From Erysipelotrichaceae bacterium (GTDB taxonomy: Bacteria > Bacillota_I > Bacilli_A > Erysipelotrichales > Erysipelotrichaceae), in assembly GCA_017441765.1 (NCBI GenBank), contig JAFRVK010000012.1, forward strand, positions 1 to 37,395: a DNA stretch of 37,395 nucleotides, given 5' to 3'. Positions 30,800 through 37,335 of this stretch are shown one piece after another. Below the pieces are notes generated by a model that saw only the letters and a program-made list of their open reading frames with translations, was not told the origin of the DNA and ran no database searches. A program made the translations under genes and the position numbers. Every line of letters begins with the position of its first letter. Within the stretch, counting starts at the first letter, position 1.

Positions 30800-31243
30800 A
30801 TGAAACTTGATGAACAGAAAATCGTTGATTATTTAAAGAACCATATCGGAGAGAACACGACGACTTATCGTCTGGCAAGAGATTCCGGAGCCGTCAAAGG
30901 AGAGTGCGATGATATGAAAGCGGATCAGAAGATCCGAAAGATCGCCGAAAAAAACAGATTCAGGCTGAATAACGATCACAATTACATTAAAGTATTAGGC
31001 ATGCCCTGGGTCATCGATTTCTATATCGAAGAATACGACAGGGACGAAGTGATTTCCGAGATCATGAAAGAACCGCGTCCGCAAAGAAGGATCGCCATGA
31101 TCCGGAACGAATACGGGATCTATGACGAAAATCGTCTTATTGAATTCAGATACGATATTCCCGATGTTTTGAGGGAACTCTATGAAAAAGACTGCAACGA
31201 TTTGGATCGGCTGTCCGTGGAAGGGAAGGCCGATAATGACTGA
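30800..31243 (+). CDS. Hypothetical protein at the edge of the accessory region
   Basis: I do not recognise this 147-residue protein. The N-terminal ~65 residues (EQKIVDYLKNHIGE, TTYRLARDSGAVKG, IRKIAEKNRF) look like a small winged or helical DNA-binding fold, followed by an aspartate-rich middle and a helical end (VLRELYEKDCNDLDRL). Base composition resembles the chromosome to its left rather than the AT-richer DNA to its right, so it may be the last native gene before the phage-like block. GGAGG lies upstream. Its TGA overlaps the next ATG by one base. Confidence 0.65.
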   Translation: MKLDEQKIVDYLKNHIGENTTTYRLARDSGAVKGECDDMKADQKIRKIAEKNRFRLNNDHNYIKVLGMPWVIDFYIEEYDRDEVISEIMKEPRPQRRIAMIRNEYGIYDENRLIEFRYDIPDVLRELYEKDCNDLDRLSVEGKADND

Positions 31244-31506
31244 TGACAGAAAATAAAAATCGCTTATACTTTGAAGGAATGAAAATTTATAGAGTTCAAT
31301 TGTGTGACAAGAAACCGCCATACATATATACTCCTGATTACATGGTGGATGAAACAGATTTCATGGTAAGCAAAATGCGTGTCGAATATAGAGATGAATA
31401 TGCTGTATGCGTTTGGGCAGAGGATGAAGACCACGCCTTGAAGATAGCAATCGACAAAATTGCCGAATACAAATATAACGACGTGATTAAAAGGTGGTGC
31501 GAATGA
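31243..31506 (+). CDS. Small phage-type hypothetical protein
   Basis: This 87-residue acidic protein begins the AT-richer accessory DNA. It contains KIYRVQLCDKKPP, a short tyrosine-rich stretch, and CVWAEDEDHALKIAIDKIAE, typical of small phage hypotheticals. The natural start may be the ATG at 31279 (MKIYRV), because the first 12 codons could be a by-product of the junction; neither start has an ideally spaced site. It overlaps the next gene by ATGA. Confidence 0.6.
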   Translation: MTENKNRLYFEGMKIYRVQLCDKKPPYIYTPDYMVDETDFMVSKMRVEYRDEYAVCVWAEDEDHALKIAIDKIAEYKYNDVIKRWCE

Positions 31507-31775
31507 AAGCAATATTAATTGTAGATATGCCAAAGTCTTGTGAGGATTGCCATTTAAGATTTAGTGGCGAACCGAACGAATGGTGTTGGTATTTAAGACA
31601 CGGACTTGATGACATTACATCAAAGCCATCTTGGTGTCCATTAAGACCGATGCCAAAACTCAAAGAACCTAGAGGAATGATAAAGTCAGGTGGAACGATA
31701 ACCGAAATCTATGACAATGATGAGGATGTCGGTTATAACAAAGCCCTTTATGAAATCATGGGAGAAACAGAATGA
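31503..31775 (+). CDS. Small phage-type Cys-rich protein
   Basis: This 90-residue protein starts MKAILIVDMPKSCEDCHLRF and later has WCWYLRH and SWCPLRPMP. Short MKAIL...CxxC...WCPL proteins are common in prophages and conjugative elements of Bacillota; the four Cys and nearby residues suggest a zinc site. AAGGTGG lies upstream. It overlaps genes on both sides by ATGA, so it sits within a tightly coupled early-type gene string. The beginning of a second copy of this gene is seen at 31930. Confidence 0.72.
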   Translation: MKAILIVDMPKSCEDCHLRFSGEPNEWCWYLRHGLDDITSKPSWCPLRPMPKLKEPRGMIKSGGTITEIYDNDEDVGYNKALYEIMGETE

Positions 31776-31933
31776 TAACAATCAAAGAGGAAATAACCAT
31801 CACACAAGATGACCCACTTGCTGAACAAATAGAGGGCAAATTAACAAAGCAAGATGGATGGTACATGACAGAAACAACTGTAACAAAGACATTTAAAAGG
31901 GTACAGTTCATAGGCACAGGAGAAACAGAATGA
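31772..31933 (+). CDS. Very small phage-type protein
   Basis: A 53-residue reading frame starts MITIKEEITI at an ATGA overlap with the previous stop and ends in GTGETE. Its ending (GETE, then TGA overlapping ATG) copies the ending of the previous gene (MGETE), showing a repeated gene-to-gene join. Hydrophilic, Thr-rich, with no recognisable domain. Confidence 0.5.
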   Translation: MITIKEEITITQDDPLAEQIEGKLTKQDGWYMTETTVTKTFKRVQFIGTGETE

Positions 31934-32084
31934 AAGCAATATTAGTAAAATCTATGATGGTGTCCCAGTTCTTTTCCATGAACTCTTTTTCCGTTGCATC
32001 ATCAATGTGGATAAGGTCATCAATTTCCGGGCATTCATAAAGGGCATCATAGATCTTCTCGAATCTTTCAAGCAGGTATGTCAT
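31908..32084 (-). pseudogene. Reverse-strand small gene truncated at its 3' end
   Basis: A 58-codon frame starts MTYLLERFEKIYDALYECPE, overlapping the stop of the upstream gene by ATGA, and reads sensibly through EKNWDTII. It then runs into the antisense of the forward MKAIL gene fragment and ends in a hydrophobic tail (FILFLLCL). I infer that about 42 codons are original and the rest is junction sequence. Confidence 0.55.
31930..31957 (+). pseudogene. Truncated second copy of the MKAIL gene
   Basis: After another ATGA overlap, 17 bases (31928 onward, GAATGAAAGCAATATTA) repeat the start of the gene at 31503, giving MKAILVKS. The sequence then changes into the antisense of a reverse-strand gene, so the copy is cut after about nine codons. 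The accidental frame continues to a stop at 32040. Confidence 0.6.
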
Positions 32085-32683
32085 TCCACCACCTCCGGCA
32101 ATGCAAGGATGATGCCTTTCCGGTCATCTCTCCACTCATCACTCCACTTGTAGTAGCTCTTATTGATGTCTACTACTTTGCATCCATGGTCAAGGAACCA
32201 GAATAGGTTATCCATCAATGTGGAGTTGAACAAGTGAATCCTCTTGAATCCGCAAAGCAATGCATAGAGATACACGTACTCACATTCATCATCATCCCAC
32301 ATATGGTCATCAATGTAGAGATCATCCATTTCAATGTACTTGTCAAACTTGTGGCCCATTGTCCAATCCTCATTGCAACTATATGCAATCTTGTAGAGCG
32401 CATCCCATATGCGGCGCTCTTTCTCGTTTTTGCCATATGCCCTCCAGGGTTTGAGATTTGCAAGAAGAGGATACCTTGAAAGGAGTTTCTGCTCTTCTTC
32501 AACAAGTAAGTATCCTCTTGAGTCAAGCTTTTCTTTTACATCATTGATGGTGCAATACCTTTGGGTAGCTTCCACATCCTTGTTAAATGATTCTCTCTGC
32601 ATAAGCAAGTTCCTACGGTATTCCCTTTTCTTTTGCTGCATTTCTTCAATGGCAGCAAGTTCTTTCTTTGTTTGTTTTGCCAT
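32081..32683 (-). CDS. Hypothetical phage-type protein
   Basis: I do not recognise this 200-residue protein. The N-terminus is a Lys/Glu-rich coiled helix (KKELAAIEEMQQKKREYRRN), followed by a WRAYGKNEKERRIWDALYK segment and an acidic, aromatic C-terminal half (MDDLYIDDHMWDDDE). It may be a small DNA- or protein-binding phage factor. AGGAGAG lies upstream, just after a run of three hairpins (32703-32764). It overlaps the following reverse gene by ATGA and precedes the left rearrangement junction. Confidence 0.65.
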   Translation of the reverse strand: MAKQTKKELAAIEEMQQKKREYRRNLLMQRESFNKDVEATQRYCTINDVKEKLDSRGYLLVEEEQKLLSRYPLLANLKPWRAYGKNEKERRIWDALYKIAYSCNEDWTMGHKFDKYIEMDDLYIDDHMWDDDECEYVYLYALLCGFKRIHLFNSTLMDNLFWFLDHGCKVVDINKSYYKWSDEWRDDRKGIILALPEVVE

Positions 32684-32702
32684 TATTCTTTTCTCTCCTT
32701 CT

Positions 32703-32772
32703 AGTGCCTATTGCACTCTAGAGTATCCAATCACTTGGGTACTCTAGACTACCATCGGGTAGTCATGATTGG
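32703..32772 (-). ncRNA. Three tandem hairpins before the 200-residue gene (leader element A)
   Basis: In transcript order: 32764-32747 (7-base stem GACTACC, loop CGAT), 32746-32719 (stem TAGAGTA, a C-A mismatch, a CC/GG clamp, 8-base loop AAGTGATT) and 32717-32703 (stem AGTGC). They are almost back to back, and the last ends a few bases before GGAGAG. The sequence 5' of them (32772-32766, CCAATCA) is exactly complementary to TGATTGG in the middle loop and clamp, so a pseudoknot can form. No T tract follows, so this is not a terminator. The layout matches element B. Confidence 0.65.
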
Positions 32773-33132
32773 TTAGATCTCAATATCTCCAAAGTTCTCT
32801 TTGAGGATCTTTTCTTTTGACCAGTCTGGGTAGTTTGGGTTGTTGTAGAAATAAGCGCCTGCCCACCAGTTGACATATTTTGTTACAAAGAAATCATCAT
32901 CTTTTTCCATTGATTCTTTCATGATGAATATCATGTCCCAACCTGGTTCGGATAGAACTATGATTGGTCTGAATAGTTCTATCTTTTCATCATCCCAATA
33001 CCACCCAAAGGCATGCTCATCATCATGTGGGTCTAACCACGTCGTTGCATCATCCAATTCCATTTCCTTGAGATGTGGAAGGTATAAGTATGCACCTGCA
33101 AGATCACCAACCGTTTTAATTTTCTTAATCAT
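32773..33132 (-). CDS. Hypothetical phage-type protein
   Basis: This 119-residue acidic protein begins with a basic KKIKTVGDLAGAYLYLP and then has DDATTWLDPHDDEHAFGWYWDD, a hydrophobic LFRPIIVLSEPGWDMIFIM and WWAGAYFYNNPNYPDWSKE near the end. I do not recognise the family; it looks like a compact alpha/beta protein. The ATG at 33132 is favoured because GGAGAG lies before it, directly after hairpins 33148-33209. The frame is open 14 codons upstream, through the hairpins. Confidence 0.65.
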   Translation of the reverse strand: MIKKIKTVGDLAGAYLYLPHLKEMELDDATTWLDPHDDEHAFGWYWDDEKIELFRPIIVLSEPGWDMIFIMKESMEKDDDFFVTKYVNWWAGAYFYNNPNYPDWSKEKILKENFGDIEI

Positions 33133-33147
33133 TCTTTTCTCTCCTTT

Positions 33148-33209
33148 GGTATATTCATACCTTTGACCATCCAATTGTTTGGGTAGTCAAAGCTAGGAAT
33201 TTACCTAGC
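33148..33209 (-). ncRNA. Three tandem hairpins before the 119-residue gene (leader element B)
   Basis: In transcript order: 33209-33192 (stem GCTAGG, loop TAAATT), 33191-33162 (stem TTTGACTA with one G-T, then a C-A mismatch, a CC/GG clamp and 8-base loop AAACAATT), 33161-33148 (stem GGTAT, loop GAAT). There are no bases between the three. The middle hairpin has the same mismatch, clamp and AA..ATT loop as element A, although the stem bases differ. The sequence after it (AAAGGAGAGAAAAGA, then ATG) also matches element A's. Confidence 0.65.
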
Positions 33210-33213
33210 CACA

Positions 33214-33303
33214 TTAGTCTTCATCAACATCAAATGCAATGTCATCTTCTTCTACCAGGACTCCATCATTCAATGCATTTTGCAAATCAACCACAAAACA
33301 ATC
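33214..33303 (-). pseudogene. C-terminal fragment of a reverse-strand gene
   Basis: A reverse frame reads YAYDCFVVDLQNALNDG, then an acidic tail VEEDDIAFDVDED and stop TAA at 33214. Upstream it is soon closed by a stop where the forward polyvalent-protein sequence begins (~33306-33325). Its start is missing, so it is the 3' remainder of the first gene of the reverse block. Confidence 0.5.
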
Positions 33304-33305
33304 AT

Positions 33306-36300
33306 ATGCATAAACTAATAGTTTTTACAGAAACATTTGACTACAAAAAAAGACAAGTAATTGTCCCAATACTGATTAATGACCTAAGCCAATACGAGGG
33401 TTCATTTGACGAATACAATGTTGTCACATCAGCTCATGGAAGGTCGGGCATTAAAAACTTTATTCAGCGGCAGATCGATGACGGTTATGTGGTTGTATAT
33501 TCCGACACAAAAAAAATACAGAAGTTAAACGTTGAAGACGGGGTGCAATACCCAGCCAGCGTTTATTCTGTATCTAATATTAATGTAACACAGGATGACA
33601 AAACTGGCAAGACACAAAACTCTTTAGGCGAAACTAGCGATCTCAACATGACGGATGAAGAGATGGACAAGTATATGAAACAGTCCGTTCCTACCAAGAG
33701 TCAGATGGATGCAGCAAACAAGTCTCTCGCCAAAGTATTAAGTGAAACTCCTGAAAAAGAAAAGAAGAGCAATCTTAAGAAATGGGCAAGGGATCTGCTG
33801 AGATTCAAGTTTGTCGACAGGTATACCGGAGTCGTCGATCTTGCCGAAAGCAAAGGCAATGAAAGACTCAAGGACCTGACCGACTGGGCGATCACTTCCA
33901 ATGCTAGAGCATCTAACACGATCTACAAGGGAAGATTCGACCAGAACGGAAAGAAGAAGATAGGCAAGAGCCTAACTGAAATCCTTGGCACTCTTCCAAA
34001 GACGGACAGGCAGTTGTTCTTCGAGTATATGTATCATTGGAGAAACGTCGATGATATGTCTCTGAACGAAAGGTTTGGCGAAGATAACAAACCCGTATTC
34101 GGAGATGACTTCACCGACGATGATTCCAGACAGAGGATAGCGGAGATCGAGCAATCCCATCCGGAGTTCAAAAAGAGAGCTGAGGAGATCTGGAACTACG
34201 TCCAGGAAGACCTGAAGATGCAGATTGGCGGTCTTATCTCCCAGGATGGATACAATGATCTGCTGAAGAAGAGACCTCACTATGTTCCAATCGAAAGGAA
34301 CGTAGAGAACCAAAAGGGCAATTCCTCTACGGATGCCAACAAGCTTCTGAAGAAGATGAAAGGCAGCAATCTCGATATTCTTCCTCTTGATGAATCATTG
34401 AAGAGGTACACCCAGAGAGCGTACAAGACGTTCGACAGAAACAATCTGTTCAGTGAGATCGCAAAGACTATGGGAGTCACGGACAATCTTGAGAATGAAG
34501 CCATTGATGATGTGATGGAGAATGACATCGAATCGGCAATCGAGGCGGATGGCAATTATATGCTTACCTTCTACCGCAATGGGCAGAAGATGTCCGTCCC
34601 TGTCGACAAAATCATCTATGACGGATTCAAGTCCGGCACACAGATGAATGAGGATCTGAAGAAAGTGGCCGACAAGTGGGCGAAAGTAAACCAGGTGAGA
34701 AAGAATCTTCTTACCGCCTGGAACCCGTTCTTCGCTATCAGGAATGCTTCCAAAGACTTGCAGGATGCAGGATGGAATACGAAATATGCGAAGAATTTCC
34801 CTGCAAAATATGCAGAAGCATGGGCACAGATAGCCAACCATGGAGAGTTCTACCAGCAGTTTGTGAATCTTGGAGGTGGCATGAGCAACTATTCTGCTCG
34901 TGATCTGGCGGACGCGTTCAACGAGCAGCAGTCAGACAAAGGGATGAAGAAAGTCGTAAACAGACTTCTGGAAATCAATGATGATGTCGAAACCGCTCCT
35001 AGACTTGCGGAGTTCATGGCGTCTCTGGAAGCGGGAAACTCTGTGGAGAAAGCGATGCGTGATGCAGCTGAGATCACAACCAACTTCAAGCGAGGCGGCA
35101 CGGTTTCCAAAGCGGTGGACAAGTATGGTTTCACATTCCTCAACGCATCCATCCAAGGATATGACAAGCACGTCGGCGACTGGAAGAGCAACGTGAAAAA
35201 AGCAAGGAAAGCCGGGATAGGCGGAGTCCTCTCCCTGATGGCCAAACTTACTCTTGCATCGGGTCTTCCATTGAGGCTCTTGCAGGATTTCCTGTGGAGA
35301 GATGACAAGGACTATGAGGAACTTTCGGATTACATTAAGGATAAATATTATATTTTAGGCAAGACGAAAGGTGGCAAGTTCATAAGGATCAATAAGGGTA
35401 GGATCGCAACATTCTACCAGACCGTTCTGATGAACGCTGCCGAGACCATCCAGGGCAAGGTGAACATGTGGGATGCTATGGTTGATGATGCAACTTCATT
35501 TATTGACAACATTGCTCCAAACAATCCTCTGGAGAACAACATCCTTGCTCCTATCTCTCAGACTATGAGCAATAAGACCTGGTATGGGGATGACATTGTA
35601 TCTTCGCGTCTGCAGGGTTACAACGAGTGGGATCAGTATGATGAATCCACCGATGAACTTTCCAAAGCGATAGGAAGACTGTCAAAGAAAATGGCGGATG
35701 CAACCGGATCCAAAGTGTTCGCATTGAGTCCAAAGAAAGTCAATTATCTTCTGGACCAGTATTCCGGCGTTATAGGAGATGTGGTGCTTCCAGCACTTAC
35801 ACTGGAAACCGAGACATCGGTAGACAATCCTCTGCTGAAAGGCCCGGCTACGGCATTGCTCAATTCATTTACAAGCGATCCAGTTCTGAAGAACCAGAAT
35901 GTGGCAGACTTCTACGCTCTCAATGAGCAGTTGCAGAAAGACACCAAGGACAAGAATGCCACTGATGAACAGATCCTCTCTGCCAAGTATATGGCAAGCG
36001 TCAGTTCGGAAATGGGCAAACTGTATGCACAGATGCATGAGGTCCAGGGCAGCGATTTATCCAACAAGGAGAAGATGGAACAGACAAGGGAACTCAAAAA
36101 GCAGATCAACGACCTTGCCCGTGCCGCCTTGGATAACTATGACAACATGGATATCTCCGGTCAGTATGCTTCGGTAGGCGGAGTCCAGTACTATCAGAAA
36201 GATGATGGCTCATGGGTGAAGCCATCCAAGACCGCTTTAGAGAAACTGGATGCAGCCGGTCTCAGCGATGAGGACAGAGGATATTACTTCTCTACTTATG

Positions 36301-37028
36301 GCGAGATCGATACCATCCGCAAAGACATCAAGGCAAACACTCCGGAAGGTCAAAGTGCTGACTACACCCAGGCTACCATCGATGCGATCAATGATTCGGA
36401 AATGTCCTACAAAGGGAAGAATACTTTACTGGATTCCTATTATCCCGGTAAGTTCACCGATCACGTCAACTCGATGAGCCTGAGCGATGAAGAAAAGTAC
36501 AATCTCAAGGTGGCGAACAAGTTAGCCAAGGGCGAAAAGGATAAGAACGGCAAGACCGTTGCCAACTCCAAAGCCAGGGCGACCGCTGCTGCCTACCGTG
36601 AGCTGGGATTGCTGGATGACGTGTTGCAGTACATCAAGGATAACGATATCAGTCCTACCGAGATGGGCTTATCCAAGACGGTCTACAACGAGCTTCTCAA
36701 GGGAGATACGAGTTACCTTGGCGCTTATTCAAAGACATCCAAAAAGTCCTCAGGATCGAAGAAAAAGGGCTCCAAAAAGAGTTCTAAGAAGGGCGGAACC
36801 ATCAAGAAACCGTCGGCAATCACCGGCGGCAAGACGATGCTCATAAAGAACCCTGGAATGAAGTCTCCTCAAGTGAAGAAGAGCTATCTCAATGCCTATT
36901 CCAATATAATGAGGCAGGGTTCTAAGAATGTATCTCAGGGATCCAGCTCTTCAAATGTATGTCCTAACTGTGGAAACAGGGTATCTCCTGTTAATGGAAA
37001 ATGTCCTATCTGCGGAGCAAAATTGTGA
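33306..37028 (+). CDS. 5'-truncated phage polyvalent protein (LPD38-like region, C-terminal zinc ribbon)
   Basis: The ~1240-residue frame starts without a ribosome site at a junction, so its true N-terminus is missing. Residues ~1-90 (LIVFTETFDYKKRQVIVPI, IKNFIQRQIDDGYVVVY) resemble the nuclease/toxin-type modules attached to MuF polyvalent proteins. A linker and a helical region (~130-450) follow, then RKNLLTAWNPFFAIRNASKD (~468), which matches my knowledge of the LPD38 domain of large phage virion proteins. A hydrophobic patch lies at ~636, with long helical repeats to ~1170, a Lys/Ser tail (KKSSGSKKKGSKK) and a zinc ribbon CPNCG/CPICG (~1218-1236). The protein would be a virion or injected component. 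Domain names are by eye. Confidence 0.75.
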   Translation: MHKLIVFTETFDYKKRQVIVPILINDLSQYEGSFDEYNVVTSAHGRSGIKNFIQRQIDDGYVVVYSDTKKIQKLNVEDGVQYPASVYSVSNINVTQDDKTGKTQNSLGETSDLNMTDEEMDKYMKQSVPTKSQMDAANKSLAKVLSETPEKEKKSNLKKWARDLLRFKFVDRYTGVVDLAESKGNERLKDLTDWAITSNARASNTIYKGRFDQNGKKKIGKSLTEILGTLPKTDRQLFFEYMYHWRNVDDMSLNERFGEDNKPVFGDDFTDDDSRQRIAEIEQSHPEFKKRAEEIWNYVQEDLKMQIGGLISQDGYNDLLKKRPHYVPIERNVENQKGNSSTDANKLLKKMKGSNLDILPLDESLKRYTQRAYKTFDRNNLFSEIAKTMGVTDNLENEAIDDVMENDIESAIEADGNYMLTFYRNGQKMSVPVDKIIYDGFKSGTQMNEDLKKVADKWAKVNQVRKNLLTAWNPFFAIRNASKDLQDAGWNTKYAKNFPAKYAEAWAQIANHGEFYQQFVNLGGGMSNYSARDLADAFNEQQSDKGMKKVVNRLLEINDDVETAPRLAEFMASLEAGNSVEKAMRDAAEITTNFKRGGTVSKAVDKYGFTFLNASIQGYDKHVGDWKSNVKKARKAGIGGVLSLMAKLTLASGLPLRLLQDFLWRDDKDYEELSDYIKDKYYILGKTKGGKFIRINKGRIATFYQTVLMNAAETIQGKVNMWDAMVDDATSFIDNIAPNNPLENNILAPISQTMSNKTWYGDDIVSSRLQGYNEWDQYDESTDELSKAIGRLSKKMADATGSKVFALSPKKVNYLLDQYSGVIGDVVLPALTLETETSVDNPLLKGPATALLNSFTSDPVLKNQNVADFYALNEQLQKDTKDKNATDEQILSAKYMASVSSEMGKLYAQMHEVQGSDLSNKEKMEQTRELKKQINDLARAALDNYDNMDISGQYASVGGVQYYQKDDGSWVKPSKTALEKLDAAGLSDEDRGYYFSTYGEIDTIRKDIKANTPEGQSADYTQATIDAINDSEMSYKGKNTLLDSYYPGKFTDHVNSMSLSDEEKYNLKVANKLAKGEKDKNGKTVANSKARATAAAYRELGLLDDVLQYIKDNDISPTEMGLSKTVYNELLKGDTSYLGAYSKTSKKSSGSKKKGSKKSSKKGGTIKKPSAITGGKTMLIKNPGMKSPQVKKSYLNAYSNIMRQGSKNVSQGSSSSNVCPNCGNRVSPVNGKCPICGAKL

Positions 37029-37048
37029 TATAATAATTAAGTACCCAT

Positions 37049-37064
37049 GTGTTGATTCTAACAC
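37049..37064. other. Short hairpin after the polyvalent gene
   Basis: GTGTT and AACAC flank GATTCT, giving a five-base stem immediately before the terminator at 37067. Confidence 0.35.
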
Positions 37065-37065
37065 G

Positions 37066-37096
37066 AAGAGGGAGTTTGCCGACTCCCTCTTTTTTT
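37066..37096 (+). terminator. Terminator of the polyvalent-protein gene
   Basis: AAGAGGGAGT and ACTCCCTCTT pair perfectly across a six-base TTGCCG loop, followed by a T tract to 37096. Confidence 0.92.
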
Positions 37097-37177
37097 GTGG
37101 CAAAAACGTGGCAGAAAATAGGGAAATAAAAGACCAAAAATGGAAGTAAAAGGGTAGTAATGAAACAAGCACTGAAA

Positions 37178-37209
37178 TTAAAAAAAGCCCCATTTTAAGG
37201 GACTTTTTT
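37178..37209 (-). terminator. Terminator for tRNA-Leu
   Basis: On the minus strand AAAAAAGTCCC, loop TTAAAAT, then GGGGC and seven T residues, with one mismatched position. It sits about 47 bases after the tRNA 3' end. Confidence 0.65.
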
Positions 37210-37258
37210 GGACATTTACGTACATTTCAGTACATAAATGGGTAGCGTACAAATGTCC
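37210..37258. repeat. Nested inverted repeats at the tRNA-Leu 3' end, possible attachment site
   Basis: GGACATTT (37210-37217) and AAATGTCC (37251-37258) form an outer repeat whose right arm overlaps the tRNA acceptor end. Inside, ATTTACGTAC (37214-37223) and GTACATAAAT (37230-37239) pair with one mismatch. A phage-like block lying directly 3' of a tRNA is the classic place for an integrase site, but no integrase gene and no second tRNA-end copy are seen in the window. Confidence 0.45.
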
Positions 37259-37335
37259 GGGATAAGGGACTCGAACCCCCACGGTCGCCCACCAGATTCT
37301 AAGTCTGGCGCGTCTACCAGTTCCGCCAATCCCGG
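37256..37335 (-). tRNA. tRNA-Leu (UAG anticodon)
   Basis: On the minus strand CCGGGAT (37335-37329) pairs with ATCCCGG (37263-37257), followed by discriminator A at 37256. D-arm GCGGAACTGGTAGACGC, anticodon loop CTTAGAA giving TAG (reads CUA/CUN Leu), a long variable arm and the T-arm GGGTTCGAGTCCC are all present. CCA is not encoded: the next bases are CATTTG. An AT-rich region with TATAAT-like boxes precedes it at about 37340-37360. Confidence 0.93.

Follow-up and report, generated by a model that had tools for sequence, protein, structure and literature searches.

Two leaders of 62 nt, each a row of three packed hairpins, precede consecutive minus-strand genes of an orphan operon that lies in a prophage remnant within the window (the whole 37,395-nt stretch of DNA that was analysed). 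The pair of structured leaders is real, whereas its function can only be inferred. The proposal in the initial annotation, an RNA structure under selection in the leader of a phage-associated mRNA, is well supported, because (i) the folding is not that of chance sequence, (ii) the middle hairpin carries compensatory changes, (iii) the position relative to the SD sequence is fixed and (iv) no terminator is present. The reading to which we assign about even confidence is that the leaders are two copies of a single structured mRNA element between cistrons, of which the middle hairpin is recognised. Its features suggest an RNA control element that has no earlier description and is of a kind with precedent.

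Leader 1 (positions 32764–32703, minus strand) fills the gap between the stop codon of a 119-aa ORF (32773–33132, minus strand) and the SD of a 200-aa ORF (32081–32683, minus strand). Leader 2 (33209–33148, minus strand) lies between the stop codon of a partial upstream gene and the SD of the 119-aa ORF. By-eye reading places the C-terminal end of this upstream gene at 33214–33300 (minus strand), cut at the edge of the segment. A third ORF of 58 aa (31908–32084, minus strand) follows; its start and the stop codon of the 200-aa ORF overlap. It has no hairpin leader and is probably shortened by the segment edge. Leader 1 is composed of H1 (32764–32747, 7 bp, loop CGAU), the middle hairpin H2 (32747–32718, 8 bp followed by a C·A mismatch, CCAA/TTGG and the loop GUGA) and H3 (32717–32703, 5 bp), with H1 and the outermost pair of H2 competing for C32747. 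The corresponding hairpins of leader 2 are H1 (33209–33192, 6 bp), H2 (33191–33162, 8 pairs including one U·G, then the C·A mismatch, CCAA/TTGG and the loop ACAA) and H3 (33161–33148, 5 bp). In both leaders, H1 begins 4–8 nt past the preceding stop codon, the 3′ end lies 2–3 nt ahead of AGGAGAGAAAAGAAT and H3 ends 3–4 nt from GGAGAGAAAAGAAT. The latter is the SD region shared by the 200-aa ORF (32685–32698, minus strand) and the 119-aa ORF (33131–33144, minus strand), where it runs into the ATG. Sequence and folding thus confirm the three back-to-back hairpins that the initial annotation had reported ahead of each of the two minus-strand genes, and its coordinates and stems were right.

Comparison of the two H2 hairpins reveals which parts are kept. 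The minus-strand sequences are CTAGAGTA-C-CCAA-GTGA-TTGG-A-TACTCTAG in leader 1 (32718–32747) and TTTGACTA-C-CCAA-ACAA-TTGG-A-TGGTCAAA in leader 2 (33162–33191), so that in each copy eight variable pairs are followed by a C·A mismatch, by CCAA/TTGG as an invariant stem and by a tetraloop, GUGA in leader 1 and ACAA in leader 2. The mismatch position and the inner stem are identical in the two copies. An earlier description of this tip as a CC/GG clamp with an 8-base AA...ATT loop holds for the C·A mismatch and has to be revised for clamp and loop, as two further A-U pairs extend the stem and close a tetraloop. Compared pair by pair, eight of 12 H2 pairs are identical, three are altered on both sides, one is altered on one side (U-A to U·G) and none is broken; the pairing is lost when it is shifted by 1–3 columns. 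The stems are therefore variable and still paired, as had been claimed, with less divergence than that claim implied. An equally good outcome was obtained in 52 of 500 shuffles, which is about what two sequences allow. With n = 2, both from one genome, the statistical support for covariation is weak. The stretches kept between the leaders are the H2 tip and the SD; H1, H3 and the base of H2 have diverged, H1 and H3 keeping their shape and not their sequence.

We scanned the window for consecutive hairpins of which the last of three ends ≤8 nt from GGAG. Among the 244 GGAG sites of the window, the leaders score 22 and 21.5, and the next best site scores 15.5. Of 150,000 random 85-mers matched to the local dinucleotide composition, 6 scored ≥21, corresponding to a chance of ~4 × 10⁻⁵ per site. 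With flanks, the two leaders fold with z-scores of −4.6 and −4.4; without flanks, the blocks reach −5.7 and −6.0. Predicted helix probabilities are mostly 0.9–1.0. In these folds, the SD of leader 2 is 97–99% unpaired; that of leader 1 is about half open (0.45–0.95), and its ATG is paired inside the coding sequence. No intrinsic terminator (GC-rich hairpin followed by a T tract) was found and no T tract follows the leaders, in line with the initial annotation.

The row of three hairpins occupies all of the space from the stop codon to the next SD and, in computed folds, leaves the SD of leader 2 open and that of leader 1 partly so. With the predicted SD accessible to this extent, it is unlikely that the leaders simply sequester it. 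Conservation points to H2 as the part that would be recognised, by its invariant CCAA/TTGG top, C·A mismatch and tetraloop on a variable stem. Its reader would most likely be an RNA-binding protein or nuclease of phage or host, which would set, separately for each downstream cistron, how stable the mRNA is or how it is processed. Most economically, a protein would be bound at H2, or an enzyme would cut or be stopped there. H1 and H3 would probably serve as both spacers and shields that keep ribosomes of the upstream gene and exonucleases off the next start, and the action as a whole would be post-transcriptional, cistron by cistron. The sequence does not separate stability or processing from translational repression, and the degraded prophage possibly does not express the operon.

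If a phage protein bound H2 (and H3, by the SD), it might instead block the ribosome and co-repress both genes, in the manner of coat proteins or T4 gp43. We regard such a translational operator as possible but doubtful. A variable stem capped by an invariant top that includes a mismatch and a tetraloop resembles a protein-binding hairpin, and H2 is common to two genes. The precedent, for this account as for the favoured reading of a recognised middle hairpin, is the gene 43 operator of T4 and RB69, a hairpin ahead of the start codon that combines a constant top with a variable base: between relatives, top and loop are identical, and length and base differ (PMC3014915). This operator differs from the leaders in being a single hairpin with the loop UAAC that serves autoregulation of a DNA polymerase, and no polymerase gene is present here. 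Against an operator, H2 precedes the SD by ~20 nt, which puts it at the margin of a 30S footprint or outside, the SD of leader 2 is not sequestered, and no RNA-binding protein was recognised near the leaders by family searches of the neighbouring proteins.

Intercistronic hairpins commonly set mRNA stability, and phage operons carry stabilising or processing hairpins between cistrons, for example the T7 RNase III sites. The leaders are likewise placed between consecutive cistrons; they differ from hairpins of the T7 type in forming a row of three with a constant middle tip. It is conceivable, and in our view quite unlikely, that they are generic stabilisers or processing spacers devoid of specific recognition, their shared core reflecting a recent intergenic duplication. 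H1 and H3, which keep shape alone, would fit this account. A recent duplication, however, predicts similarity throughout, whereas only the H2 tip and the SD are conserved, and the compensatory changes in H2 require selection.

The H2 core could also act as DNA: CCAANNNNTTGG is a 12-bp palindrome and might be an operator for a dimeric DNA-binding protein, with the hairpins being incidental. Consistent with this, the plus strand folds as well as the minus strand; on the plus strand, the conserved C·A mismatch becomes U·G and the U·G of leader 2 becomes a mismatch. Because both strands are equally foldable, the sense strand is assigned from gene order and not from thermodynamics, both blocks lying directly ahead of an SD and a long minus-strand ORF. 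Yet a DNA operator requires no fixed distance to the SD, no unrelated hairpins such as H1 and H3 next to it and no flanks that vary between copies while staying complementary, and no promoter-like excess is seen, which renders this alternative very unlikely. Two further candidates were rejected by eye: (i) an attenuator switch, in which CCAATCA before leader 1 would pair with TGATTGG and for which leader 2 has no counterpart, and (ii) integron attC sites, the GTTRRRY core of which is missing here.

Contrary to the initial annotation, which knew of none, a named element of this layout does exist. The Rfam family freshwater-2 (RF02980), a cis-regulatory candidate present on more than 100 phage contigs, has three tandem hairpins followed by AAAGGAGAAAACAAATG. 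Rfam 15 at gathering score returned only two tRNAs for the whole window. At low threshold, RF02980 aligns to leader 2 with 19.6 bits (gathering cut-off 49.9; E ~0.3 for 131 nt). The alignment covers model positions 1–84 of 84, extends from H1 as far as the start codon and is carried mainly by H1 and the SD, and H2 of the model is not aligned to H2 of the leader. Leader 1 gave no match to RF02980, nor did the model find a member in the leaders' own genome. A consensus pattern of freshwater-2 matched at least 120 stretches in IMG/VR, and nine of 11 pattern-matched loci scored above the cut-off of the Rfam model. The tested loci show a variable H1, a conserved H2, a short H3, AAAGGAG and the ATG of a protein starting with MGRP. 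They thus share with our leaders the row of three hairpins followed by SD and start codon of a phage gene, and, as here, the middle hairpin is the most conserved part and H1 is variable.

The differences are equally clear. The freshwater-2 middle hairpin is TATGCGG, a 7-nt loop and CCGCGTA, as opposed to CCCAANNNNTTGGA here, and TATGCNG...CNGCGTA is not present in the leaders. Spacing from H3 to SD is mostly 15–18 nt (where H3 is measurable) versus 2–4 nt here, and the gene that follows encodes the MGRP-starting protein on aquatic phage contigs, to which the genes here are unrelated. In some members, an outer helix additionally closes the row and CTCC pairs with the SD. Since the two elements differ in middle hairpin, in spacing and in downstream gene, and the score lies under the cut-off, the leaders are, judged by sequence, an analogue of freshwater-2 and not a family member. 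That they form a divergent branch of the family is hardly credible: although leader 2 aligned over the full model, its score is far from the cut-off, H2 stays unaligned and leader 1 unmatched. The literature searched contained no published function of freshwater-2. In a subgroup of freshwater-2 loci (L066, L069, L163 and similar), the outer helix GTTCAA/TTGGAC closes the three hairpins and CTCC pairs with the SD; this arrangement is absent from the Rfam consensus structure as shown. On two IMG/VR phage contigs, glutamine riboswitches (glnA leader, RF01739; L133:5126–5178 and L148:7886–7933) occur within ~1 kb of a freshwater-2 RNA.

We ran a covariance model (R1) on the leaders' own genome, on 316 genomes from its order and on 392 from its phylum, a kind of search that the initial annotation had asked for. 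Across the three sets, the two copies were the only ones found. One weak match (28.4 bits, in genome G077) consists of two ordinary hairpins without the core and was rejected. Pattern scans of IMG/VR (H2 core plus SD; SD context) and of GTDB contigs (core plus SD) gave only matches in which complementary flanks or the three hairpins are missing. Genomes of the family yielded no further copies, and a same-genus prophage (genome G136; L186, L190, L191) has no comparable leader. The missing copies are uninformative and not refuting, since the operon proteins likewise have no relatives in the sets searched. The 200-aa ORF has no convincing family match in Pfam, PHROGs, NCBIfam or PADLOC and no tblastn relative; the 119-aa ORF has no family in the same collections and no convincing relative. 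Searches with the operon proteins of IMG/VR, GTDB contigs, phages, plasmids and the family and phylum genomes gave chance matches only, and DNA comparison with phages gave only short chance pieces. A weak protein match in MT836828 was rejected, as the gene containing it reads as that of a recombinase. AlphaFold, run with no alignment, produced poor models of both proteins (mean pLDDT 57 and 45).

The leaders might be the sole sequenced members of a new class of intercistronic RNA element in phages, its constant CCCAANNNNTTGGA tip read by a dedicated protein at many genes of an unsequenced phage, a proposal we hold to be rather unlikely. If it is true, then together with freshwater-2 it would mean that three-hairpin rows with a recognised middle hairpin arose more than once for the control of phage cistrons. 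Structured leaders of phage genes are little explored. That the layout recurs without sequence similarity, once in the leaders and once in freshwater-2, hints at a common mechanical role, in which the start of a cistron is isolated from its neighbour and one hairpin is presented for recognition.

Positions 31243–37200 of the window are a prophage remnant at tRNA-Leu (37255–37335, minus strand). Besides small plus-strand phage genes, it contains the minus-strand orphan operon as an insertion and the C-terminal portion (1264 aa) of a MuF_C/LPD38 polyprotein. In a second genome of the genus (G161, L188), host genes are present up to the gene at 30800 and these phage genes are absent; its tRNA-Leu region is apparently the same, judged by translation. 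The plus-strand ORF 33234–37028 (MuF_C, LPD38, zinc ribbon) matches the end of a 2961-aa protein of G136 (L186), and hence looks 5′-truncated in sequence comparison. On the left, a broken gene start, ATGAAAGCAATATTA after an SD (31919–31945, near 31930), stops after about five codons. This start borders the minus-strand segment on its left and resembles that of the 31494 ORF (MKAIL...). The operon (~31945–33300) is flanked by two opposite-strand phage pieces with broken genes, between which either recombination or assembly may have placed it, and we infer its phage origin from position only. An assembly or chance artefact, for which these broken flanks and an incomplete assembly of 65 contigs might speak, is scarcely tenable, as both leaders and both ORFs lie inside the segment and would be internally coherent even if it were mis-joined, and as chance is as low as computed above. 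Within the orphan ORFs, repeated CATCATCA...GGTCATCAAT stretches at 31997–32024 and 32287–32314 encode Asp-rich motifs.
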